NCBI RefSeq assembly: GCF_018780105.1
Contig: NZ_JADMKC010000018.1
Coordinates: 160,160 to 224,159 of the forward strand
DNA: 64,000 bases
Origin: Thiobacillus sp.
GTDB taxonomy: Bacteria > Pseudomonadota > Gammaproteobacteria > Burkholderiales > Thiobacillaceae
Reading direction: 5' to 3'
This document shows, in pieces, positions 4,194-16,984 of the stretch. Position 1 is the first letter of the stretch. The number at the start of each line of letters is the position of its first letter. The translations under genes were made by a program, and so were the position numbers. Under the pieces are notes generated by a model that was not told the DNA's origin, ran no database searches, and was given only the letters and a program-made list of their open reading frames with translations.

Positions 4194-6742
4194 ACCGTCC
4201 GCTGCTTGCCGGCCTGCGCGAACGGCTGAAATCCCGCCGCGCGGCGCTGGTTGCGGCGTATCTCAAAAAACCCGCGGTTTCGCTTTATCTGACGCGCCAC
4301 GCCGGTCTGGTGGACGGCGTGCTGGCGGACATCTGCGCCGGGCTGGCGCTGCCCGGCAGCTTTTGTCTCGCCGCGGTGGGCGGCTACGGGCGCGGCGAGT
4401 TGTTCCCCGGCTCGGACGTCGATCTGTTGCTGCTGCTGCCACATGAGCCCGACGCCGCGCAACAGGCCACGCTGGAAAACTGGGTGCAGGCATGTTGGGA
4501 CATCGGGCTGGAAATCGGCCACAGCGTGCGCACTGTCGAGGCCTGCGTGGCCGAGGCGGCCGCCGATATCACGGTGGAAACCAACCTGCTGGAAGCGCGC
4601 TTCCTGTGGGGCAGCCAGGCCCTGTTCGGCCAATTCGAAAGCGCTTTCCAGGCGCGCTTCGACGCCCAGCCGTTTTTCGACGGCAAGCTGGCCGAGCAGC
4701 GCGCACGCCACGCCCGCTTCGACGACAGCGCCTACAAGCTCGAACCCAACCTGAAAGACAGTCCGGGCGGGCTGCGCGATCTGCACACGATTCACTGGCT
4801 GGCGCAGGCGTGCGGCATCAGCGGCGGCTGGAATGGCCTGGCCTGTGCTGGACTGCTGACCCACGCCGAGGCCCGCCGCATTGCGCAAGCCGAACGCAGC
4901 GTGGCGGCGCTGCGCATCCATCTGCATATTCTGGCCGGGCGGCGCGACGACCGCCTGGCCTTCGACTACCAGACCGAACTTGCCGAACGGCTGGGGCTCG
5001 CCGCCACGGCGCACAAGCGCGCCGGCGAACGCCTGATGCAGACGTATTTCCGGGCAGCCAAGCTGATCCAGCGCGCCAACGACATCCTGATCCAGTCGCT
5101 GCGGGTGCGACTGTTTCCGGTGAACGCGCCGCCGCAGCCGATCGACGCCGATTTCCTGCTGCGCGCCAATCTGCTCGAAGCGCGCGATCCCGAACTGTTC
5201 GAGCGCAAGCCCGACGCCTTGCTGCGCATTTTCATCGTCTACGCGCAGCACCCGCTGGTCGACGGCTTCGAGCCCACGACCCTGCGTGCGCTGTGGCGCG
5301 GCAGCCTGCAGATCAATGCCGCCTTCCGCGCCGATCCTGCACATTGCGCGCTGTTCATGACGCTGCTGCGGCAGCCACTAGGCATTACCCGGGCGCTGCG
5401 CGCGATGCACCGGTTCGGCCTGCTGGCGCGCTATATCCCGGCGTTCGGCCGCATCGTCGGGCAGATGCAGCACGACCTGTTCCACATCTACACCGTGGAT
5501 GAACACATCCTGATGGTGTTGCGCAACATGCGGCGCTTTACGGTGCCCGCACTGGCACACGAATTTCCGCTCGCCAGCCGGTTGATCCAGTCGTTCGACA
5601 AGCCGGAACTGCTTTATCTGGCCGCGCTGTTTCACGATATTGCCAAAGGCCGGGGCGGCGACCATTCCGAGCTCGGGCTGGTCGATGCGCGCCGGTTCTG
5701 CCGCCATCACGGGCTCGACAAGACCGACAGCGAACTGGTCGCCTGGATGGTGGGCATGCATCTGGTGATGTCGCGCACCTCGCAAAAAGAGGACACCAGC
5801 GATCCGGAGGTGATTGCCGCGTTTGCCGCACGCGTGGGCGACAGCCGCCGGCTGACCGCGCTCTACCTGCTGACCGTGGCCGACATCCGCGGCACCAGCC
5901 CCAAGGTCTGGAACGCCTGGAAAGGCAAGCTACTGGAAGATCTCTACCACGCCACGCTGGCCAGCCTGTCAGGCGGCACCCAGGCCATGGCCGGCATCGC
6001 CGCCAAGCAGGCCGAGGCACGCATCAGGCTCGCCCTCTACGGCCTGCCCAACAGTGCAGCCGATGCGCTGTGGCAACACCTCGACGAACGCTATTTCGTG
6101 CGTTACGAGGTCCGCGACATCGCCTGGCAGGCGCGCATGCTGTGGCGTCGCACCCATACCCCGGATGCGGTCGTGCAGGCGCGCCTGTCGCCGGTGGGGG
6201 AAGGCATCCAGGTGCTGGTCTACACGCCCGACCGCCCCGACCTGTTCGCCCGCATCTGCGGCTTTTTCGCGCGCATCCAGTACACCATCCTCGAAGCCAA
6301 GATCCACACCACGCAACATGGCTACGCACTGGATAGTTTTCAGGTGATGGATCTGGCCAACCGCGGCATCCATTACCGCGATTTCCTCAGCTACGTGGAA
6401 CACGAACTTGCGCGCGACCTCGACCCCGCGCGCCCGATGCAGGCCGCGCCGCGCGGCCGCCTGTCGCGCCACCAGCGCCACCACCCCTACCCGGCCACGG
6501 TTCGCCTGGAAGCCGACGCGCAAGGCCGAGGCCATATGCTGAGCATCACCTGTGCCGACCGCGGCGGCTTGCTGTTTGCGGTAGCGGAGGTTTTGATGCG
6601 GCATGAGGTGAGCGTCTATGCCGCCAGGATCGACACGCTGGGCGAGCGCGTCGAAGATACGTTTCTGGTGCGGGGGGAGGTATTGCAGTCGCCTGCCAGC
6701 GTGCAGGCGCTGGAAGCGGAAATACTCGGCGTGTTGCAGTAA
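4190..6742 (+). CDS. glnD: bifunctional uridylyltransferase/uridylyl-removing enzyme GlnD
   Basis: Adds UMP to PII proteins, and removes it, in response to glutamine, so it is the primary nitrogen sensor. The open frame runs back into map. The natural start is GTG 4190, which overlaps the map stop and gives 850 aa, the family length. Domains in order: nucleotidyltransferase with GGYGRGELFPGSDVDLL near residues 64-80; HD hydrolase with FHDIAKGRGGDHSELG near 481; two C-terminal ACT domains (about 665-740 and 780-850) that bind glutamine. Catalytic residues of both activities look intact. No PII gene is in the window. Confidence 0.96.
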   Translation: MNRPLLAGLRERLKSRRAALVAAYLKKPAVSLYLTRHAGLVDGVLADICAGLALPGSFCLAAVGGYGRGELFPGSDVDLLLLLPHEPDAAQQATLENWVQACWDIGLEIGHSVRTVEACVAEAAADITVETNLLEARFLWGSQALFGQFESAFQARFDAQPFFDGKLAEQRARHARFDDSAYKLEPNLKDSPGGLRDLHTIHWLAQACGISGGWNGLACAGLLTHAEARRIAQAERSVAALRIHLHILAGRRDDRLAFDYQTELAERLGLAATAHKRAGERLMQTYFRAAKLIQRANDILIQSLRVRLFPVNAPPQPIDADFLLRANLLEARDPELFERKPDALLRIFIVYAQHPLVDGFEPTTLRALWRGSLQINAAFRADPAHCALFMTLLRQPLGITRALRAMHRFGLLARYIPAFGRIVGQMQHDLFHIYTVDEHILMVLRNMRRFTVPALAHEFPLASRLIQSFDKPELLYLAALFHDIAKGRGGDHSELGLVDARRFCRHHGLDKTDSELVAWMVGMHLVMSRTSQKEDTSDPEVIAAFAARVGDSRRLTALYLLTVADIRGTSPKVWNAWKGKLLEDLYHATLASLSGGTQAMAGIAAKQAEARIRLALYGLPNSAADALWQHLDERYFVRYEVRDIAWQARMLWRRTHTPDAVVQARLSPVGEGIQVLVYTPDRPDLFARICGFFARIQYTILEAKIHTTQHGYALDSFQVMDLANRGIHYRDFLSYVEHELARDLDPARPMQAAPRGRLSRHQRHHPYPATVRLEADAQGRGHMLSITCADRGGLLFAVAEVLMRHEVSVYAARIDTLGERVEDTFLVRGEVLQSPASVQALEAEILGVLQ

Positions 6743-6781
6743 TACCTTGCAGTAATGCGGGGTCAGGCGACCGCGGCGGAA

Positions 6782-7003
6782 TTACGGTGCAGGACTGGCG
6801 TACTCATCCACATAGCGGCCACGCGTCGGCGCCTTGCGCGCCGGGGGGGCTTTCTTGCGCGTGCCTTCGGCCGGTTTTTTGACTTTCGGGTCCAGCCCGG
6901 TTTTCACGCGGGTACCGCTGCGCCCCGGTCGCACTCCGCCGCCCACGGTCGCATCGGCCAGACTGATTTCCCGCTTCATTTCATTCGATTGGGTCGCTTT
7001 CAT
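6782..7003 (-). CDS. small basic protein of unknown function
   Basis: A 73-aa frame whose ATG (7003) overlaps the TGA of the FlaF-like gene in an ATGA arrangement. Translation is therefore probably coupled, which is the main evidence that it is real. The product is rich in Lys, Arg, Gly and Pro (VKKPAEGTRKKAPPARKAPT) and looks disordered. There is no signal peptide, membrane segment or known domain. It could be a nucleic-acid-binding or scaffold peptide. A longer frame starting at 7264 only shadows the gene upstream. Confidence 0.6.
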   Translation of the reverse strand: MKATQSNEMKREISLADATVGGGVRPGRSGTRVKTGLDPKVKKPAEGTRKKAPPARKAPTRGRYVDEYASPAP

Positions 7004-7383
7004 GCTGCTACCCGCCATTCCTTGAGGCTCCCTGCCAGCGTGCGCGTCAGCGCGGCCAGGCTGCCTACCCCCTCGGTGCTGGGTTCGGCTTCGCAGGCGC
7101 TGATCTTGCCGTCGGCATAGACCGAGAGAATCAGGAGGTTGTGCTGCACTTCCAGCGGAACCGCCAGAGCGTTTTCTGCAAGCGCGGTTTGAATGCCATG
7201 CCAGACTTCGCGACTGGCCGCCAGAACATCGGCCAGCTGGCTGACACGGTTGGGGTCGTTCCATTGCTGCTGCACTTTGAGCAGCCGGATCGCGATGTTG
7301 TCCAGCTGCGCCACCTCGCTGATCATCCCTTCATATGGGTGAACACGATGCCGAGCTTGTCCGGTCGAATTTTGCGCGCTCAT
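7000..7383 (-). CDS. FlaF-like protein
   Basis: 127 aa from ATG 7383, which has AAGGA 5 nt upstream; ATG 7326 is an alternative. Residues ~25-105 resemble the FlaF flagellin regulator family: helical, with the pattern REVWHGIQTALAE followed by VPLEVQHNLLILSVYAD, close to the NRxLW...LPxxLxxNLLxLS pattern I know from FlaF. In alphaproteobacteria FlaF works with FlbT on flagellin mRNA and export. Here there is no FlbT and no flagellar gene, so the role is uncertain. The gene lies downstream of def in the same direction and was probably closer to it before the element at 7500-13039 inserted. Confidence 0.55.
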   Translation of the reverse strand: MSAQNSTGQARHRVHPYEGMISEVAQLDNIAIRLLKVQQQWNDPNRVSQLADVLAASREVWHGIQTALAENALAVPLEVQHNLLILSVYADGKISACEAEPSTEGVGSLAALTRTLAGSLKEWRVAA

Positions 7384-7499
7384 TATTGTCCTTGCTGCTT
7401 GCGCCGGGGCACCTTGCCCACGGTTACGCTTCAAGTTAGCGGCAATGCCCTACACAACTTTAGGCATGCTAAATGCGTGCCAGCACACACAAAACCGGG

Positions 7500-7596
7500 T
7501 CAATCGTCCTGCAGGTTCTGTCCGGGAAACAGGGTATCGGTGAAGCCGAAGTAGCGCAGATCGCGTATCCGCATGGGGTACAGCACGCCGTGCAGA
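7500..7596 (-). repeat. left direct repeat (candidate att site), displaced def 3' fragment
   Basis: Identical over 97 bp to 12943-13039. Read on the minus strand it encodes the C-terminal end of peptide deformylase with its stop codon at 7500-7502, but has no start or catalytic part. The next base on each side differs between the copies, so the repeat limits are exact. Confidence 0.93.
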
Positions 7597-7650
7597 GTCT
7601 GGAATAAACCCCATAGAAACAGGGCTTTAGTTCCATGATCGACCTTGATA

Positions 7651-7668
7651 TGTCAACTACGTGCCAAC
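7651..7668 (+). repeat. candidate integrase arm-type site, left
   Basis: The 18-mer TGTCAACTACGTGCCAAC lies 54 bp inside the left repeat. It matches 12832-12849 at 15 of 18 positions in the same orientation. Paired short repeats just inside both ends are typical of arm-type binding sites for tyrosine integrases. This is pattern-based inference. Confidence 0.4.
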
Positions 7669-7681
7669 AGGGGCGTAAATC

Positions 7682-8665
7682 ATGGCTTCAATTCGCAAAC
7701 TTCCATCCGGTAAGTGGAACGTAAGAATCATTCGTCGTGGATCACCTACGATCACTAAAACATTCATCAATAAAGCTGACGCCGATAAGTGGGGAAGAAT
7801 CACTGAATCAGAATTAGATCGCGGTGTATGGGTAGATCGTAGCGAAGCGGAAGCTACAACCCTAGCCAGTGCCCTTGAACGATACCGGCGTGAAGTCACC
7901 CCCAAAAAGAAAGGGGCAATCAGGGAAGATAACCGGATTGCTAAATGGCTTCGATCTGACTTGGCGTGTCGTTCCATCGCTTCGCTCAAACCTTCTGACT
8001 TTGCTGCATATCGGGACAAGCGCCTTGAAGCGAAGGCAGCTGCAGCCACGGTACGTCTAGAACTGGGTGTCATATCTCACCTGTTCACCATTGCAATACA
8101 GGAATGGGGACTGTCTGTGGTCAATCCAATTCAATCAATACGCAAGCCCACTGTGAACAATGCCCGCACAAGGCGATTAGAAGGTGATGAGGAATCACGT
8201 CTTCTTACTGCATGTAGCGAATCAAGAACCCGCCACTTATATTCAATGGTTGTTCTGTCGCTTGAAACGGCTATGAGGCGGGGGGAAATTGTTTCGTTAA
8301 CGTGGTCTGAGATTGACCTTTCCCGGTCGGTCATAAAGAAAGATGACAGCAAAAACGGTGACGGTCGAATTATTCCACTTACAGAAAAGGCTTTAGCTGT
8401 TCTACCCCCAAGGGGAATTGGAAGACTGTTCCGAACATTCCCCCGTAGTGCTTTTGAAGCTGCACTAAAGAAAGCAGGGATTGAGGATTTTCATTGGCAC
8501 GACTTACGCCATGAAGCTGTAAGCCGTCTATTTGAGCGGGACATGAATGTAATGGAAGTCGCGGCGGTGTCAGGGCACAAGACCCTTCAACATTTAAAGC
8601 GGTACACACACCTGAAGCCTGAAGACCTTCTACGAAAAATGAATAGGCAGGCCTCATCGGTCTGA
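7682..8665 (+). CDS. int: tyrosine recombinase/integrase of the element
   Basis: 327 aa. Residues 1-60 form an N-terminal arm-binding-like region (SIRKLPSGKWNVRIIRRG), ~60-150 the SAM-like core-binding domain, and 165-320 the catalytic domain. Catalytic residues: R199 (AMRRGEIVSLTW), K224 in the beta-hairpin (SKNGDGRIIPL), H273 and R276 (HDLRH), H299 (SGHKTLQHL) and Y308 (KRYTHL). All are present, so the enzyme looks active. It begins 85 bp inside the left 97-bp repeat and reads inward, the usual position next to attL. The predicted target is the 3' end of def. Codon use is more AT-rich than in the host genes around it. Confidence 0.93.
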   Translation: MASIRKLPSGKWNVRIIRRGSPTITKTFINKADADKWGRITESELDRGVWVDRSEAEATTLASALERYRREVTPKKKGAIREDNRIAKWLRSDLACRSIASLKPSDFAAYRDKRLEAKAAAATVRLELGVISHLFTIAIQEWGLSVVNPIQSIRKPTVNNARTRRLEGDEESRLLTACSESRTRHLYSMVVLSLETAMRRGEIVSLTWSEIDLSRSVIKKDDSKNGDGRIIPLTEKALAVLPPRGIGRLFRTFPRSAFEAALKKAGIEDFHWHDLRHEAVSRLFERDMNVMEVAAVSGHKTLQHLKRYTHLKPEDLLRKMNRQASSV

Positions 8666-9014
8666 CGACCTTCAGGAATGCTGTTTAGGCTCACTAGGAA
8701 GGCCGCTACGGGGTTTAACTCATGCGGCCCACACTACCCTAGCCGTCAATTATTGCAATTGTCTTTCTGCAATGAATCCTAACCCAAGTTCCCACATACA
8801 AAATATAGCAAGAATGGCTTGTTTAAAGGGATACAGCCTGATTGCCATTCTTATCAACAAACAAATTAAGACAACCGCATCGAAAAATAATAAAAATATT
8901 TGTTGACAAGTCTAATCAGACGTGCTATAATAATAGCTTGTGTAGAAAAGATTACGCCTTTTAGACATATCTTTTGGAATTATTACACATGAAATAGACG
9001 GAGTCAATAAAATA
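8666..9014. other. AT-rich control region of the element
   Basis: About 350 bp with no ORF, between the integrase and the small-gene operon. It holds a 9-bp inverted repeat (AAGAATGGC 8810-8818, GCCATTCTT 8844-8852, 25-bp spacer), a shorter ATTGCA/TGCAAT pair (8752-8757, 8768-8773) and the consensus promoter at 8903-8931. AT-richness and inverted repeats next to a polymerase-like operon make it the best candidate for an origin or regulator-binding region. No iterons are obvious. Confidence 0.5.
8903..8931 (+). promoter_or_regulatory. perfect consensus sigma-70 promoter of the element operon
   Basis: TTGACA (8903-8908) and TATAAT (8926-8931) are both exact consensus hexamers separated by the ideal 17 bp. 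The spacer contains the palindrome GTCT-AATC-AGAC, a possible operator between the two hexamers. The first gene of the operon starts 84 bp downstream at 9015. So strong a promoter on a mobile element would normally need repression, which the palindrome may provide. Confidence 0.85.
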
Positions 9015-9173
9015 ATGAACTTTGGTAACAACTTAAAAAATATGGTTGGGCTTCCCCTAACCGAAGAAGATCAAATTCCCTTTATTGCCATGAAGCGCAA
9101 GGCGGAGGAAATTGAAGCAGAGAAGCAAGCAGCACTAAAACAAAAACAAGATTTGGAGAAGAAACAATCATGA
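9015..9173 (+). CDS. small charged protein, first gene of the element operon
   Basis: A 52-aa frame (begins MNFGNNLKNMVGLPLTEED, ends EKKQS). The C-terminal half is a highly charged Lys/Glu/Gln helix, probably coiled coil. It is the first frame after the consensus promoter, and its TGA overlaps the next ATG (ATGA at 9170-9173). No family recognised. Confidence 0.6.
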   Translation: MNFGNNLKNMVGLPLTEEDQIPFIAMKRKAEEIEAEKQAALKQKQDLEKKQS

Positions 9174-9625
9174 GCGAATACGAATACGACCCCCTCACCG
9201 GACAGCCGGTAGAACCATCCATCTTCACCACACCCGAAGTTGAAGAGCCACCTGCACCGAAGATTGATACCCGCGACAAGCTAGCCAAGAATGCAAGTGC
9301 GTTTCACCAGACAAAGGCAGTTAATAACGGGGAGCCTGACTGGGCAGGCATGTTGCTAAACGCAAAGGATATGGCGGAAAAGTTCCGTATCCGTAGTGCC
9401 CGGGAAGCTTATGTAGCCGAAGTTAAATATCAACGCATGAATGAAATTATGCAGGCAGAAAAAGCGCGGATTGCTGAGGTACTTCGTACCCCTATTCGCA
9501 ACAAATCTTTCTATGCTGAGCTTCAGCGTAATGATGCACCAGCTTACTGGTCTGTTGAGGTGCAACGCCAGATGAAGACGGATAAAGCGCAACTTGGGCT
9601 AGCGTTTCATCTGAAAGGGAAATGA
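9170..9625 (+). CDS. unknown element protein, 151 aa
   Basis: The start overlaps the preceding stop. The N-terminal ~40 residues are acidic and Pro-rich (YDPLTGQPVEP) and look disordered. The C-terminal 100 residues are mainly helical and charged (residues ~60-110), ending in a short LAFHLKGK tail. There is no signal peptide, membrane segment or known motif. Overlaps on both sides (ATGA at 9170, 4 bp at 9622) place it in one translationally coupled series. It could be a replication or partition accessory factor by position only. Confidence 0.65.
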   Translation: MSEYEYDPLTGQPVEPSIFTTPEVEEPPAPKIDTRDKLAKNASAFHQTKAVNNGEPDWAGMLLNAKDMAEKFRIRSAREAYVAEVKYQRMNEIMQAEKARIAEVLRTPIRNKSFYAELQRNDAPAYWSVEVQRQMKTDKAQLGLAFHLKGK

Positions 9626-9846
9626 TCGTGAGCGCCAACGATGAATATCTTATTCCGTTGGTGGCCTTGCTAGCCCGGTCGTTTGGGCAGCATGGGATAG
9701 CCACAATTCTTAACGAACGTGAGATTCCCAATCCATCAAATGGTAAACCGTGGAACCAGACAGCAATTTCTAGATACATGCAGCAAGCGGGGATTGTCCC
9801 CCGTTTTACTTTAAAAATTTCCCCCTATGAAAAACACCCCAACTGA
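9622..9846 (+). CDS. small HTH-like protein, 74 aa
   Basis: Starts at ATG 9622, overlapping the previous stop; GTG 9628 is an alternative. Residues ~14-56 (FGQHGIATILNEREIPNPS, then WNQTAISRYM) resemble the helix-turn-helix segment between catalytic and DNA-binding parts of serine recombinases, where the pattern IAxxLNxxGIPxPxGxxW recurs. No recombinase catalytic domain is present, so this is a stand-alone DNA-binding candidate. It could be the element's own regulator acting on the palindrome in the promoter. Confidence 0.6.
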   Translation: MIVSANDEYLIPLVALLARSFGQHGIATILNEREIPNPSNGKPWNQTAISRYMQQAGIVPRFTLKISPYEKHPN

Positions 9847-10003
9847 GATTACCGAAGAAGAGAAATTACTAGCCAAAATTAAACACACCTTTCGATTAGA
9901 TAGCAGCGCCATTGAACAGCTTCGGCTTGTTCTGCTGTCATTGAAGGCGAAGGACTTACCCATCCAAAAGCATAGCGGTACTACGCGGAGTCGATGGGTA
10001 TGA
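9827..10003 (+). CDS. very small helical protein, 58 aa
   Basis: The ATG (9827) lies inside the end of the preceding gene and the TGA (10001-10003) overlaps the next ATG. The residues (EEEKLLAKIKHTFRLDSSAI, then LVLLSLKAKD) suggest two amphipathic helices. No family recognised. Overlaps at both ends are the main evidence. Confidence 0.5.
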   Translation: MKNTPTEITEEEKLLAKIKHTFRLDSSAIEQLRLVLLSLKAKDLPIQKHSGTTRSRWV

Positions 10004-10494
10004 GTTATCAAACGTCCCGCAATTGGGCTGACGCATACCTACCTCAGCAGAATCAAATAGCGTGTGGGCTGCTTTTGGAGAAGAACCTCATCAGCGTTGT
10101 GTTCACGCCGCCTACCTACGCTGAGGATGCAATATCCGGCGTCGATACGTATATCGATATTTCGCGTCTAAAGCTAGCCTATCGGGTAAGAAAGCAATCC
10201 GACCATGACTATTGGCGAAAAGGTTTCACCCTTCGTACATCAAAGAAAAACGGGCACTTATCTGAGTTGGAAAAGGTGATGGCCCAAAGTGCTGACTATG
10301 CCGACTACTTGTTGTACAGCGTAGCAGACGACGAACCGGGACAACTAATGTGCTCATGTCTTATAGATTTGAAAAGCTGTGGTGCTCAGTTGGTTGCATA
10401 CCCTGAGATTCTGAATAAAGCACACTTTGGGAATGGATTTGTAGACTTGCCCTACGAACTGTTCCCGGATCATATTGTTATGGGGATACATTGA
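10000..10494 (+). CDS. unknown element protein, 164 aa
   Basis: ATG 10000 overlaps the previous TGA (ATGA); an in-frame ATG at 9994 would add two residues. It has mixed alpha/beta composition with a beta-rich centre (TYIDISRLKLAYRVRKQS, then GFTLRTSK) and a helix ending in ADYLLYSVADD. The order of strands and acidic residues is loosely like nuclease or ssDNA-binding folds, but I cannot name a family. There is no signal peptide or membrane segment. Its position two genes before the polymerase-like gene suggests a replication accessory. Confidence 0.6.
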   Translation: MSYQTSRNWADAYLPQQNQIACGLLLEKNLISVVFTPPTYAEDAISGVDTYIDISRLKLAYRVRKQSDHDYWRKGFTLRTSKKNGHLSELEKVMAQSADYADYLLYSVADDEPGQLMCSCLIDLKSCGAQLVAYPEILNKAHFGNGFVDLPYELFPDHIVMGIH

Positions 10495-10700
10495 AAATGG
10501 ATGATCGATACAGAGAGGCGCGGGATGCTGCGCTGTTTAAAGCAAAGCCTGTTGTTAGCACGGCTGTCCCTGAAGAAGAGATAGAACAGCTTCATGATGA
10601 GTGGTGGCCGGGTGAAGACGAAAGTTACCTAACCCCGGAAATGCTGGCAGCACATTGGAAAGAGCTACACCCAGGTACTGAAGAGGACGAAGAACTTTGA
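10491..10700 (+). CDS. small acidic protein, 69 aa
   Basis: Probable TTG start at 10491, overlapping the previous stop; ATG 10497 would give 67 aa. Strongly acidic, with a WWPGEDESY segment and a Glu/Asp tail (TEEDEEL). It may be a DNA-mimic or protein-interaction peptide, which is speculation. The stop overlaps the TTG of the next gene. Confidence 0.55.
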   Translation: MKMDDRYREARDAALFKAKPVVSTAVPEEEIEQLHDEWWPGEDESYLTPEMLAAHWKELHPGTEEDEEL

Positions 10701-11911
10701 GTGACGACCTACGCGAAGCGATTCCGCTACAGGTTCACAGGAAAACGGATTACCCCCCAATGGCTGAGCAGTTGGCTGGATTGTTTGGGGAGGTAGTTGC
10801 ACTGAGGGTGGGACGTAATCAACAACTCAGGAAAGCAGGACGGGTAAAGAAGCATCTAGATGTATTGGTTCTTGATTTGTGGGTGGCCGCGAATTACTAC
10901 CCATCACCATGGCGGATGGTGAGCCGCAACGAAACCGATTACAGACAGGAAACCCGATATAGAAAGCTTTATCTTAAACATGCCCTTTTAATGGGTGTGC
11001 TGGATGACCTAGCGAAGCTTGGTTACATCGAAGAGAAGCGGGGGTTCTTCGATAAGCAGAAAGGCAGAGGATTTCAAACCCGAATCCGGGCAACCAAAAA
11101 GCTGTTAGAGCTTCTTACCGGATTTGATATTGCGAAGATTGAACGCGACCCGGAAGCCCCAGAAGAAGAAGTAATCATTCTTCGGGACAAAGACAAACGG
11201 CAAATAGACTACACAGATGACAGATTCACCGATGAAATGCGGAATGACCTGCATATCTATAACGCCTTCCTTCGACAATCTGACATAAACACGGAAGCGG
11301 TTGATCTACGGGGAGTGGCAGACCCGACAGCCATCACTGTTAAACGGATTTTCCAAGGTGACAGCATTAATGAAGGTGGCGGAAGGTTTTACGGTGGATT
11401 CTGGGAGAACATGCCGAAGCAGGACAGATTAAAGCTGCTGCTGCAAAAAGGGCCAGTTGTCGAACTGGATTACGTGGCGATTCATCCGACGATTGCTTAC
11501 GCCTTCAAAGGCATTCCACTAACGGAAGACCCCTATCTTATTGATGGGTGTGAACGTAGCGACGTAAAGAGAGCATTTCTTGTCCTGTTCAACTGCAAAG
11601 ACCGGGAACATGCCTTGAGAACAGTACGGTCTGAGTTTCACATCAAGGGAGCTGAGTTGTTGCTTTCCATGATTGAACAGAAGCACGAAGCCATTAAGGA
11701 CAGCTTCTACAATCCGGGGTTCGGGATGACGCTACAGAATACAGATGCGTGGCTAGCTGAAAGAATCCTTAAGCGGATGACTGAAGCAGGCATAGCTTGT
11801 TTGCCTATCCACGATTCGTTTATCGTCAGTGAGAAATACGTGATGGAACTACGCGAAGCAATGGACGAAGCTTTCTACAATATCTTTCTGATACATCCTT
11901 CTATTAAGTAA
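10697..11911 (+). CDS. family A polymerase-like palm protein (putative replication protein)
   Basis: 404 aa from TTG 10697, overlapping the preceding stop. Residues ~85-140 look like a winged helix (LMGVLDDLAKLGYIEEK). Residues 228-268 carry GGRFYGGFWENMPKQDR and then VVELDYVAIHPTIAYA, which fits motif A of family A polymerases (metal Asp D258). RSDVKRAFLVLFN (287-299) fits motif B, with R287 and K291. CLPIHDSFIVSE (368-379) fits motif C, with H372 and D373. HDS rather than HDE resembles single-subunit T7-type RNA polymerases. There is no 3'-5' exonuclease, and the protein is far shorter than PolI. It is the last and largest gene of the operon, so replication of the element is the likely role. 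Activity as DNA or RNA polymerase cannot be told from sequence. Confidence 0.65.
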   Translation: MSDDLREAIPLQVHRKTDYPPMAEQLAGLFGEVVALRVGRNQQLRKAGRVKKHLDVLVLDLWVAANYYPSPWRMVSRNETDYRQETRYRKLYLKHALLMGVLDDLAKLGYIEEKRGFFDKQKGRGFQTRIRATKKLLELLTGFDIAKIERDPEAPEEEVIILRDKDKRQIDYTDDRFTDEMRNDLHIYNAFLRQSDINTEAVDLRGVADPTAITVKRIFQGDSINEGGGRFYGGFWENMPKQDRLKLLLQKGPVVELDYVAIHPTIAYAFKGIPLTEDPYLIDGCERSDVKRAFLVLFNCKDREHALRTVRSEFHIKGAELLLSMIEQKHEAIKDSFYNPGFGMTLQNTDAWLAERILKRMTEAGIACLPIHDSFIVSEKYVMELREAMDEAFYNIFLIHPSIK

Positions 11912-11961
11912 CAGGTATCTAGTCGGAAGGTCTTGGTGATCCTCCCTCCATTACTAACGGG

Positions 11962-12597
11962 TTATCTTTTAAAGGTACGGTAAGCAACTAGTCCAAGTCC
12001 GGCTAGGAACATGACGTAGGTTTCAGGTTCAGGGATAGCAGCTACATCACCATCCCTGACAGCCCAAGCGTATCGACTGTTTGGCTCAAATTTGTTATCC
12101 GCATACTGATAGCCATTGGTCATGTAGAAGTTCCATGCCTGACTTGCGTTGTATTCCGTTTCAGACCAGTAAAACTCAGTTTGGATATTCTGGAACAAAT
12201 TGAAGTTGGCATTGTGCGTGGTCACAATTGACTGACCATCTACGCCACCCAGATCAAGGTAAAACAGGTGCCCTAGCTCACTTGCTGTGCAGCCGCCCCC
12301 GTACCCTTGACCCCCTGCTAATTGGCTTGCACACCCAGAATCAGGCTGTGTCGTTGTAGGTAGTCGCCACCCGCTCACGCCACCATAACTAAGGCTTGAA
12401 GCCCAAACCATAGCCTCATTCCATACCATAACGCCATTAGCGTCATACCCAGAAGTCTTGGCGTAGTTGGCATCCTGCAACCAAGTGATGTTCTGCTCAT
12501 CGTCATAGATCAGACCACTACCCCGATCATGCAGGGCAGCATTAGCAGTTCCAGCAAGCATTAAAGCCCCAACGAACAGCACTGTTCTTGTAATCAT
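11962..12597 (-). CDS. PEP-CTERM exoprotein with DUF1566-like domain (cargo)
   Basis: 211 aa from ATG 12597, which follows a GGTGGGGA site; a frame extending to 12675 lacks a signal sequence. Residues 1-21 are a signal peptide (LFVGALMLAGTANA). The central part is DUF1566/Lcl-like: GLIYDDEQNITWLQDANYA, VSGWRLPTT, EFYWSETEY, SRYAWAVRDG. The C-terminus is a PEP-CTERM sorting signal: IPEPETYVMF, a hydrophobic helix and TFKR. Such proteins are processed by an exosortase and placed on the cell surface or in exopolysaccharide; the exosortase must be elsewhere in the genome. It is convergent with the element operon and is the only likely cargo. Confidence 0.88.
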   Translation of the reverse strand: MITRTVLFVGALMLAGTANAALHDRGSGLIYDDEQNITWLQDANYAKTSGYDANGVMVWNEAMVWASSLSYGGVSGWRLPTTTQPDSGCASQLAGGQGYGGGCTASELGHLFYLDLGGVDGQSIVTTHNANFNLFQNIQTEFYWSETEYNASQAWNFYMTNGYQYADNKFEPNSRYAWAVRDGDVAAIPEPETYVMFLAGLGLVAYRTFKR

Positions 12598-12942
12598 TTC
12601 CCCACCCCTTTTCTTTTCGTTGTTTTTCGTTGCTAGGGTAGTGTACCCCCAGCGGTTTAAGTCGCTCAGAATCACTTCTGGTGAGTCCTAGTAGCATTGG
12701 TTCAGGAATTTCTGTAAGAAAAATTAGGGGTCGATTGCAATATATACAGCACAGGCCGGCACCCCCCTTGCCCCCCATACCTGCATTTTCCTGATAACCC
12801 TTTGTCTTCAAACACTTACAGAATAATTCCGTGTCAATTCTGTGCCAACTGTGCTATGGTTTTCTACATATAGGCATAGATAAGCTCTTCGGCTGTCTGT
12901 CTGTATGGGTTCGTCGGAACCTAGCTAAGTAGTTGATTAATA
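12598..12942. other. right-end non-coding region of the element
   Basis: About 345 bp upstream of the PEP-CTERM gene up to the right 97-bp repeat. It carries the right candidate arm-type repeat (12832-12849) and presumably the PEP-CTERM promoter. No ORF is supported; a minus-strand frame at 12542-12811 has no family features. Confidence 0.45.
12832..12849 (+). repeat. candidate integrase arm-type site, right
   Basis: TGTCAATTCTGTGCCAAC is the partner of 7651-7668 (15 of 18 identical, same orientation). It lies 93 bp inside the right 97-bp repeat. Confidence 0.4.
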
Positions 12943-13039
12943 TCAATCGTCCTGCAGGTTCTGTCCGGGAAACAGGGTATCGGTGAAGCCGAAGTAGCGC
13001 AGATCGCGTATCCGCATGGGGTACAGCACGCCGTGCAGA
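12943..13039 (-). repeat. right direct repeat (candidate att site), functional 3' end of def
   Basis: Identical to 7500-7596. It begins exactly at the def stop codon and extends 97 bp into the gene, so integration rebuilds the complete def reading frame. Confidence 0.93.
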
Positions 13040-13476
13040 TGATCGACCTCGTGCTGCACCACGCGCGCATGAAACGCGCTGACGCTGCGGTCGACGGGCT
13101 GTCCCGCGGCGTCGAATCCCTGATAGCGCAAGGCCGTGTGGCGCGGTACCAGGCCGCGCATGCCGGGAACCGACAGGCAGCCTTCCCAGCCGTCTTCCAG
13201 TTCGTCCGACAGCGGCGTGAGCAGCGGATTGATCAGCACGGTATACGGCACGCTTTCAGCGTCCGGGTAGCGGGGATTCGCCGCCACTTCAAATATCACC
13301 ACCTGCAGCCCCACCCCGATTTGCGGTGCAGCCAGCCCCGCGCCGTTCAACGCGCGCATGGTGTCGTGCATGTCGACGATCAGCTGCGCGAGTTCGGGAG
13401 ACGCAAAGTCCTCCACCGGCAAAGCCGGGGCCAGCAGGCGCGGATCGCCCATTTTCAGGACTTCGCGGATGGCCAT
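12943..13476 (-). CDS. def: peptide deformylase
   Basis: Removes the formyl group from N-formylmethionine of new proteins. 177 aa from ATG 13476; a frame running on to 13962 shadows rsuA. The three family motifs are intact: GAGLAAPQ (motif 1), WEGCLSVPG with the metal-ligand Cys (motif 2) and QHEVDHLHG with the HExxH ligands and base (motif 3). The gene overlaps rsuA by 22 bp and is last in the hpt-mtnP-rsuA-def unit. Its last 32 codons, with the stop, are the 97-bp repeat of the element downstream, so the present C-terminus may have been supplied by the element. Confidence 0.96.
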
Positions 13477-14177
13477 GGGGTCTCCAGTTGCTGCAGGTCG
13501 GCGGCTTCCAGCCAGCACCAGCTGCCGGGTGCAAGCGTCGCGGGCAGGGAAAACGCGCCGATGGCGACGCGGTGCAGGCGTTCCACCCGGTTGCCGGTGG
13601 CGGCGATCATGCGTTTGACCTGATGGTATTTGCCTTCCGCCAGGGTCAGCTGCAGGGTGTGCGTATCCAGCGCCTCGCACGCCAGCGCCGCAATCGGCGC
13701 GGGTTCGTCGTTGAGCAGCACGCCATTGCGCAGGGCAGCCAGCGCGGCATCGGTCACCGGGTCGGCACAGGTGGCGCGATAGACCTTGGCGACGCCTTTC
13801 TTCGGCGAAGTCATGCGGTGTATGAACTGACCATCGTCGGACAGCAGCAGCAGGCCGGTGGTGTCCTGATCCAGCCGCCCCACGCATTGCACGTCGCGCT
13901 CGATCAGCGGCGACGGCAACAGGGAATACACGCTGGGATGATGCTTGGGTTTTTGCGAACATTCGTAGCCGGCCGGTTTGTGCAGCAGCACGTAAGCCTT
14001 TTCACGATACGGCCAGGTCACGCCGTCTATGGTCAGTTCCAGACCGGCCGGATCCACTTCGTGTTCGGGGTCGTCGCACACCACGCCGTTGATCGAGACA
14101 GCGCCCGAGCGCACCCGCAATACACAACCTTTGCGTGAACCAAACCCCTGCGATTGCAACGCGCGCGCCAGCCACAT
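13455..14177 (-). CDS. rsuA: 16S rRNA pseudouridine synthase, RsuA family
   Basis: 240 aa. An N-terminal S4-like RNA-binding domain (residues 1-55, [16 protein letters not shown]) is followed by a TruB/RsuA catalytic domain with the motif [17 protein letters not shown], whose second Asp is the nucleophile. The following [16 protein letters not shown] is closest to RsuA, which acts on U516 of 16S rRNA, rather than RluB/E/F. It starts 3 bp after the phosphorylase stop and overlaps def by 22 bp. Confidence 0.9.
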
Positions 14178-14180
14178 GAT

Positions 14181-14942
14181 TCAGACCGCGCACGCAGATG
14201 CGGCGTCGTTGGTCACCACCTGCTCAAGCAGGTGCCGCACCTGCAGCATCGATTCGCCCAGCACCGCCTGGATTTCTTCCATCTGGATGCCGTCGGCCGA
14301 CGAGCCACGCCCTGCCGCATAGTTGACCACCACACCCACTGCGGCATAGCAAAGATCGAGTTCGCGCGCGAGGTAGGCCTCCGGCATGCCGGTCATCCCC
14401 ACCATGTCGGCGCCGTCGCGCTCCATGCGGTTGATTTCGGCGGCTGTTTCCAGACGCGGGCCCTGCACCGCGCCATACACACCGCCGTCGCGCAGCCGGA
14501 TGCCGGCGTCGATCGCGGCCTGCAACAGGGCAGCGCGCATGGCGCCGCAATAGGGAAAAGTGAAATCGAGGTGAGTTACCGGCTTGTCGCCACCAACAAA
14601 ATAAGTCGAGGCGCGGCCATGCGTGTAGTCGATGATCTGGTCCGGGATCACCAGCATGCCGGGGAGCAGTTCGGGATGAATCCCGCCTACCGTCGCCACC
14701 GACACCACGCGGTCCACCCCATGCTCCTTCAAAGCCCACAGATTGGCGCGGTAGTTCACCTCGTGCGGCGGGATCGTGTGACCGTAGCCGTGGCGTGCCA
14801 GAAAAATCACTTCCTGGTCGCAAATATGGCCGAAAGTCAGCGCGCCGGACGGCTCGCCGTAAGGCGTGCGGCCCACCTTGCGGTGAGTGATTTCCAGATT
14901 GGCGAGCTGCGTCAGCCCGGTTCCCCCGATGATTCCCAACAT
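14181..14942 (-). CDS. mtnP: S-methyl-5'-thioinosine/thioadenosine phosphorylase
   Basis: 253 aa, PNP/MTAP family. It carries GIIGGTGL (phosphate loop) near the N-terminus, ARHGYGHTIPPHEVNYRANL, then ATVGGIHPELLPG and VGMTGMPEAYLARE. Where 6-aminopurine-specific MTAPs have Asp residues (SDYD-type), this protein reads VVNYAAGRG, with Asn as in 6-oxopurine phosphorylases. That suggests S-methyl-5'-thioinosine as substrate, releasing hypoxanthine. Hpt, which salvages hypoxanthine, starts the same operon and ends 1 bp away, which supports the reading. MTAP activity cannot be excluded. Confidence 0.85.
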   Translation of the reverse strand: MLGIIGGTGLTQLANLEITHRKVGRTPYGEPSGALTFGHICDQEVIFLARHGYGHTIPPHEVNYRANLWALKEHGVDRVVSVATVGGIHPELLPGMLVIPDQIIDYTHGRASTYFVGGDKPVTHLDFTFPYCGAMRAALLQAAIDAGIRLRDGGVYGAVQGPRLETAAEINRMERDGADMVGMTGMPEAYLARELDLCYAAVGVVVNYAAGRGSSADGIQMEEIQAVLGESMLQVRHLLEQVVTNDAASACAV

Positions 14943-16499: not shown

Positions 16500-16984
16500 C
16501 TAAGCTGCTTGTCCGCCGGCAGCGAGACCGTCGTCTTGAGCACCTGGTTGGGCCGATACTGACTCAAGCTCACTCTTGCTGTCGGGACCATAGATGTCTA
16601 GAGACAGCTCAATACCGCGTTCTCCGAGGGCACGCATTGTTGCTGTTGAAATGGAAACGCCTTCATTAGAGCCCTCCATAAACCACCCGCAGAACAAATC
16701 TACTTGGAAGCGCTGCGCCAGCGCGGACCATATTCTTAGATCGCTTGTGAGTTTTGTGAGCAACTCTGAAACTTGGCCATCCAAGTTTTCTGGCTCAGTG
16801 TCACTTGCATGCAGGAGCCAGCCACCAGCTTTTTTGACGAAATCACGTCCGGACATACTTACTTCGACATGGCCTTTTAACCATGCTTTCGTTGGTGCGC
16901 ACCCAAGCAACTTGGAAATTTTTCAGGCTGGAGGTCATCGCCAAAGAGACGCAGTGAAGCTCGGGAGCGTGAGAGCTGAGCCAT
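16500..16984 (-). pseudogene. DUF4279 protein, frameshifted
   Basis: The 3' frame (stop at 16500) reads LLGCAPTKAWLKGH, SGRDFVKKAGGWLLHAS, ALAQRFQVDLFCGW and GIELSLDIYGPD, a good DUF4279 match lacking its first strand. That strand lies directly upstream in another frame: ATG 16984, MAQLSRSRASLRLFGDDLQP. The two join if one A is added to the A5 run near 16920, giving EKISKLLGCAPT. So a single-base deletion (or a base-calling error in a homopolymer) breaks the gene. Both flanks are the inverted repeat arms. DUF4279 function is unknown; some members act as immunity proteins of contact-dependent toxins. Confidence 0.75.

Follow-up and report, generated by a model that had tools for sequence, protein, structure and literature searches.

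The window analyzed here is a stretch of 64,000 nucleotides from a Thiobacillus sp. genome (RefSeq assembly GCF_018780105.1, contig NZ_JADMKC010000018.1, positions 160,160 to 224,159). Within it, an integrated element of 5,346 base pairs (bp) occupies positions 7597 to 12942, at the 3' end of a def paralog that encodes a peptide deformylase of 177 amino acids (aa) on the reverse strand (12943 to 13476; PF01327 Pep_deformylase, E = 1.4e-46) and whose product is 99% identical in the related genome G035. The element is flanked by a direct repeat of 97 bp that is 100% identical between its left copy (7500 to 7596) and its right copy (12943 to 13039), and its interior has a GC content of 46.8%, versus 61.5% in about 10 kilobases (kb) of flanking DNA, in agreement with a first-pass annotation that had described a perfect 97-bp repeat around 5.35 kb of AT-richer DNA. 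The same annotation placed an intact tyrosine integrase at the left edge. Indeed, we found there an open frame of 327 aa on the forward strand (7682 to 8665) that matched PF00589 (E = 2.5e-26) and the integrase family PHROG 1 (E = 2.1e-54) and in which we recognized by eye the active-site motifs RRGE, HDLRH, GHKT, and RYTH. On the other side of the left repeat copy lies a FlaF-like gene on the reverse strand (7000 to 7434; PF07309 FlaF, E = 1.7e-6, which passes the cutoff), the native downstream neighbor of def.

The 97-bp repeat was the sole direct-repeat family returned, with the settings used, by a repeat search of positions 6500 to 14500, and a search of the host genome located it at two places only, both of them the copies in the window. 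A perfect repeat of this length is no chance event. Both copies read as def on the reverse strand: upstream, the repeat begins at the third position of the codon for the second His in HEVDH, and its downstream edge is exactly the def stop codon. The repeat had rightly been taken for the 3' end of def down to the stop codon; the count of 32 codons before the stop is corrected here to one base plus 31 sense codons.

The def occupied by the element is a paralog and not the sole def of the genome, because the canonical def sits in a def-fmt-rsmB cluster on another contig. There, on contig C31, we found a second deformylase gene, which shares 37% identity with the occupied one across the aligned region and is followed by fmt and rsmB. 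The first-pass annotation had argued that def is essential and that the element must therefore carry a faithful copy of its end. Given the canonical cluster, we rejected essentiality of the target as a premise, and the occupied paralog may be dispensable.

The def site in related genomes

We searched 56 genomes of the genus for the def paralog. Besides the host, 53 of them carry it, at 54 loci (G035 has a second, less similar copy, and L251, which duplicates L090, was counted once), and G012 and G352 have the canonical def only. None of these 54 loci, the majority of which were read for ~1.5 kb or more beyond def, contained an integrase, a polymerase, or any match to the element, and each had a single def tail; loci without the integrase that still kept both copies of the repeat were looked for among them and not seen. 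An empty site in which def leads into the FlaF-like gene, as the first-pass annotation had envisaged, was the common arrangement, with the FlaF-like gene 55 to 318 bp past def at 51 of the 54 loci. The other three gave no FlaF match: the sequence of L095 stops 176 bases past def, and other native flanking sequence lies near def in L093 and L100. When the flanks of the element in the window (300 bp each) were joined through one copy of the repeat, the resulting 600 bp aligned without gaps to G035 at 98.7% identity (8 mismatches) and to G025 at 96.5% identity (21 mismatches). An empty site, precise to the base, is present in relatives.

The two repeat copies differ in the DNA beyond the stop codon. 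Outside the left copy, this sequence matched nearly base for base what follows the def stop codon in G035 and G025; outside the right copy, it gave no match. Because only the left copy adjoins native post-stop DNA, it is the host's own def tail, left stranded, and the right copy is the tail borne by the element, which completes def and restores its frame. The displaced remnant of the first-pass annotation is thus identified with the left copy. Across the 54 other loci, the 97-bp stretch had a mean identity of ~84% to that of the window, and none was identical to it.

A search of 369 genomes of the class with a 39-aa def tail revealed no second element in def, although in the 267 genomes that gave no match a diverged tail would escape detection. 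Among the 102 genomes that matched, a displaced tail was seen in G000 only, and the remaining matches lay in open frames of at least 158 aa. An exact 33-base piece of the def tail had no match in viral contigs.

Genes and signals of the element

Downstream of the integrase, a promoter-like site on the forward strand (8903 to 8931) has perfect -35 and -10 hexamers (12 of 12 consensus positions, with a TG before the -10) and precedes the predicted replication gene cluster. By eye, we noticed a palindrome, GTCTAATCAGAC, between the two hexamers. The site may be a putative repressed promoter; the number of promoter-like sites in the region (9, versus 6.7 in shuffled sequences) is not unusual. Another palindrome noticed by eye, TTGATTAATATCAA at 12930 to 12945, spans the def stop codon and the element junction and is composed of element and def sequence. 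It may be a putative binding site or a product of chance. Predicted terminators gave no signal (4, versus 6.7 in shuffled sequences), and no RNA family reached the gathering threshold in positions 7000 to 13600.

The cluster, all on the forward strand, begins with a small open reading frame (ORF) of 52 aa (9015 to 9173), whose only Pfam match was weak (E = 0.055). It is followed by a 151-aa protein (9170 to 9625) common to the sister elements L249 and L139, in which it is 40 to 41% identical, and for which no family matched below an E value of 0.01. A 74-aa protein (9622 to 9846) contains a recombinase-like helix-turn-helix (PF07508, E = 0.0098, which fails the cutoff; the homologue in L249 passes it, with E = 4.8e-5) and, judging from this resemblance, is a candidate directionality factor or regulator. 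Two small ORFs, one of 58 aa (9827 to 10003) and an acidic one of 69 aa (10491 to 10700), were noted from the ORF list and the family scan. Between them lies a 166-aa protein (9994 to 10494), a neighbor of the polymerase that is kept in sister elements, with 69% identity in L249, 54% in L139, and 27 to 28% in L149 and L150. This protein had no notable sequence match in Pfam, NCBIfam, PHROG, or the PDB and no viral relative, and the one match among the 369 class genomes was the host itself. Its single-sequence structural model, in which we looked for an oligonucleotide/oligosaccharide-binding fold, had a mean predicted local distance difference test (pLDDT) score of 31 and was unusable for assigning a fold. 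A nuclease-like motif that we had seen by eye in the 166-aa protein was dropped as a candidate.

Past the polymerase, on the reverse strand, the element carries a cargo gene (11962 to 12675) for a predicted exported protein with an Lcl_C domain (PF07603, E = 4.3e-12) and a PEP-CTERM sorting signal (PF07589, E = 1.1e-5). This end of the element is a variable cargo slot. No capsid, terminase, relaxase, or helicase was recognized in family scans of the element ORFs, with the smallest ORFs and the origin of transfer lying outside the scan. The one match returned by PADLOC was weak and linked 53 residues of the polymerase to PDC-M38B (E = 0.0053).

A predicted TV-Pol-type polymerase

The element also encodes a 404-aa protein (10697 to 11911, forward strand) that matched PHROG 4756 (E = 9.1e-54), an uncharacterized family also matched by all eight members of our polymerase alignment. 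Residues D258, D373, R230, R287, and K291 are invariant in 12 of 12 aligned relatives; in the eight-row alignment, D258, D373, R230, and K291 are invariant and R287 is not listed as such. Two palm aspartates, a hairpin arginine, and an RxxxK motif in the fingers are the features that Iyer, Abhiman and Aravind 2008 (PMC2579912) give for TV-Pols, and D258, D373, R230, and R287-K291 of the 404-aa protein match them. Its structural model had a mean pLDDT of 81, and in a Foldseek search all 11 PDB matches at E ≤ 0.001 were family-A DNA polymerases, with template modeling (TM) scores of 0.29 to 0.34. From motifs, modeled fold, and element context, the protein is thus predicted to be a TV-Pol-type family-A polymerase.

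With tblastn, relatives of the polymerase, all below 60% identity, were detected in 100 phage records out of 50,697 and in 3 plasmid records out of 72,556. Relatives are also present in 3 of the 56 genus genomes and in 6 of 300 genomes of the order, with the host included in both of these counts. A contig from Rhodospirillaceae, L070, has two TV-Pol-like matches (4811 to 6085 and 11431 to 12726) that flank an integrase of the family to which that of the element belongs.

Sister elements and targets of the integrase family

The integrase had matches with E ≤ 1e-60 in 8 of the 56 genus genomes, and besides the host, only G345 (73%) and G026 (71%) exceeded 70% identity. The element of G345, L249, contains homologues of the integrase (72.5%), three of the middle genes, and the polymerase (37%), arranged in the order seen here. 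It is 5,436 bp long when measured between the starts of its two repeat copies, and its perfect 51-bp repeat at tRNA-Met ends two bases past the 3' end of the tRNA. The element of G026 is cut off by the end of its contig; next to its integrase lie at least 59 bp that are found again, as an intact tRNA-Leu(CAA), where a different contig starts. L149 and L150, which come from another family of the order, combine an integrase of 51 to 52% identity with a polymerase and 57-bp repeats at tRNA-Met. Sister elements differ in the exported-looking proteins encoded in the cargo slot behind the polymerase (11962 to 12675 in the window, L249:478-870, L149:7309-8041), the signal sequences being judged by eye.

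The integrase tree comprised 79 sequences after 12 of the 91 rows had been excluded because their translated segments contained stops; in it, the integrases of the window, L249, and L139 grouped together with support of 100/99. The element lineage changed its target gene, because sisters whose integrases are 71 to 73% identical occupy tRNA-Met and tRNA-Leu. A comparison by eye of the def tail with the tRNA sites for a shared core revealed nothing convincing. More widely, 69 rows could be tallied from 80 integrase loci: a tRNA gene lies within 600 bp before the integrase in 40 of them and none does in 29, five of which had less than 300 bp of upstream sequence to inspect.

At 10 of the 80 integrase loci, the 3' end of moaC lies 82 to 173 bp before the integrase match, and two of these loci have both copies of the moaC tail. 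The two tails are 86% identical over 134 bp in L068, whose MoaC was identified by Pfam (E = 3.5e-46), and identical over 90 bp in L081. These sequences suggest that moaC is a further protein gene whose end is restored by elements with integrases of this family, and since the carried tail of L068 differs from the host's, this locus provides the strongest comparison against simple duplication. No report of moaC as an integration target was found among the best-ranked literature matches. The tails lie at L068:7732-7865 and 16782-16915 and at L081:37-126 and 6963-7052; the other eight moaC loci are L040, L050, L057, L060, L063, L074, L075, and L077.

Discussion

Very probably, an integrative element entered the 3' end of the def paralog by site-specific recombination, and its own copy of the gene end now completes the gene. 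The first-pass annotation had already read the locus as an element that was inserted at the 3' end of def and brought a replacement end with it, a view upheld by the empty sites in relatives and by the leftover tail beside native DNA. In this event, the integrase would have recombined the attachment site of the element with the corresponding part of def. The exchange probably took place close to the upstream edge of the repeat, since all of the sequence between the crossover and the stop codon has to come from the element. It follows from such a crossover and the supplied tail that the intact def ends in element DNA and that the original tail is stranded beside the FlaF-like gene. The operon encoding the TV-Pol-type polymerase may then copy the excised circle.

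Several points weigh against this scenario. The element is known from its assembled, integrated form alone, no strain of the same species without it was seen, and the case stands by itself, since the genomes searched held no other element in def. The crossover cannot be placed within the 97 bp because both tails are identical, and this perfect identity, silent sites included, exceeds what restoration of the gene needs. The integrase of the present element adjoins the leftover tail but those of L249, L149, and L150 adjoin the completed tRNA gene, and the site would therefore be used in the opposite orientation. A search of G026 gave no polymerase. Lastly, the polymerase call itself draws on motifs and on a fold whose low TM scores reflect a match to the core only, with neither a PDB sequence match to the polymerase profile nor a specific Pfam family.

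The identity of the tails at silent sites points either to recent uptake of the tail from the host species or to copies made alike by recombination. Another account is that the repeat was never carried by the element and is a host-derived duplication of the def end, formed at insertion or through homologous recombination. Duplication would explain simply why all 97 positions are identical, when other species of the genus average ~84% and none of the 54 loci reaches identity. However, the repeat ends exactly at the def stop codon, and that of the sister element L249 ends two bases past the 3' end of its tRNA; L068, whose integrase belongs to the same family, has two moaC tails that are not identical, as expected of carried copies. 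In addition, long target duplications are not known from tyrosine integrases. We therefore consider duplication highly improbable. A recent switch from a tRNA to a protein gene would also leave no silent differences between the tails, because the carried tail would be matched to the host species: an ancestor that used a tRNA gene would have entered the spare def and taken 97 bp of the host def end through imprecise excision. We give this course of events somewhat less than an even chance.

Restoration of def at insertion could also have been followed by decay, leaving a dead remnant that inserted once and is now a fixture. The very limited spread of the element fits such a remnant, as does the fact that no relaxase, capsid, or helicase was recognized among the ORFs scanned. 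Yet the integrase and polymerase frames are open and the two repeat copies are identical. Moreover, the two closest relatives have no element at the site, and any integrase match in them is at 4.1e-4 or weaker, which suggests a recent arrival; we thus regard a dead remnant as rather unlikely. As for the 404-aa protein, it could be a phage-type RNA polymerase or an inactive relative instead of a replication or priming enzyme, since it weakly matched the PHROG of T7-like RNA polymerases (E = 0.022) and since mitochondrial RNA polymerases, together with DNA polymerase theta, come after the 11 significant structural matches. Against this, those 11 matches are all family-A DNA polymerases, and the protein carries the residues named for TV-Pols in PMC2579912, which makes an RNA polymerase or an inactive relative improbable.

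Three sister elements in one genus, with integrases 71 to 73% identical, have three different targets: def, tRNA-Met, and tRNA-Leu. The acquisition of new targets by integrases is otherwise mostly inferred afterwards; here, the tail carried by the protein-gene sister matches the host at every silent site, so that target switching is testable with a few plasmids. If the recent switch is true, this element would catch how integrases gain new protein-gene targets, with a duplicated and possibly spare gene suggested as the stepping stone from tRNA genes to protein genes. It also adds a gene-end context for TV-Pol elements.

The element is of a known kind. Integrative elements are found at the ends of the protein genes icd, guaA, and prfC, where the 3' end is replaced by a copy borne by the element. 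Literature abstracts add trmE as a protein-gene target. Such elements replace the 3' end in the same way, with def as the target in the present case. As far as we searched, def is an unreported target: in line with the first-pass annotation, which had not regarded it as an established one, no report was found in the open-licence literature, the main catalogue of integration sites lying outside that search.

Among known systems, the element resembles the TV-Pol mobile elements. According to PMC2579912, these share with it a family-A-type polymerase that stands alone and has both palm aspartates, the hairpin arginine, and the RxxxK motif, as well as small size, a phage-type integrase, and direct repeats; they differ in that no D5-like helicase was recognized here and in that the target here is the 3' end of a protein gene. 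The PolA-SSB (CcPol-MP) primases of staphylococcal cassettes, as presented in Rice 2023 (PMC10061031), likewise place a family-A polymerase beside a small protein without a known domain. In contrast to those cassettes, the present element has no recognized helicase and has a tyrosine instead of a large serine recombinase, and its polymerase neighbor is likened to theirs by position, small size, and lack of a known domain. Nearest of all are the tRNA-restoring elements L249, L149, L150, and that of G026, which belong to the same integrase clade and among which L249 also agrees with the present element in gene order and, closely, in size; their target is a tRNA gene, whereas the element in the window completes a protein gene.

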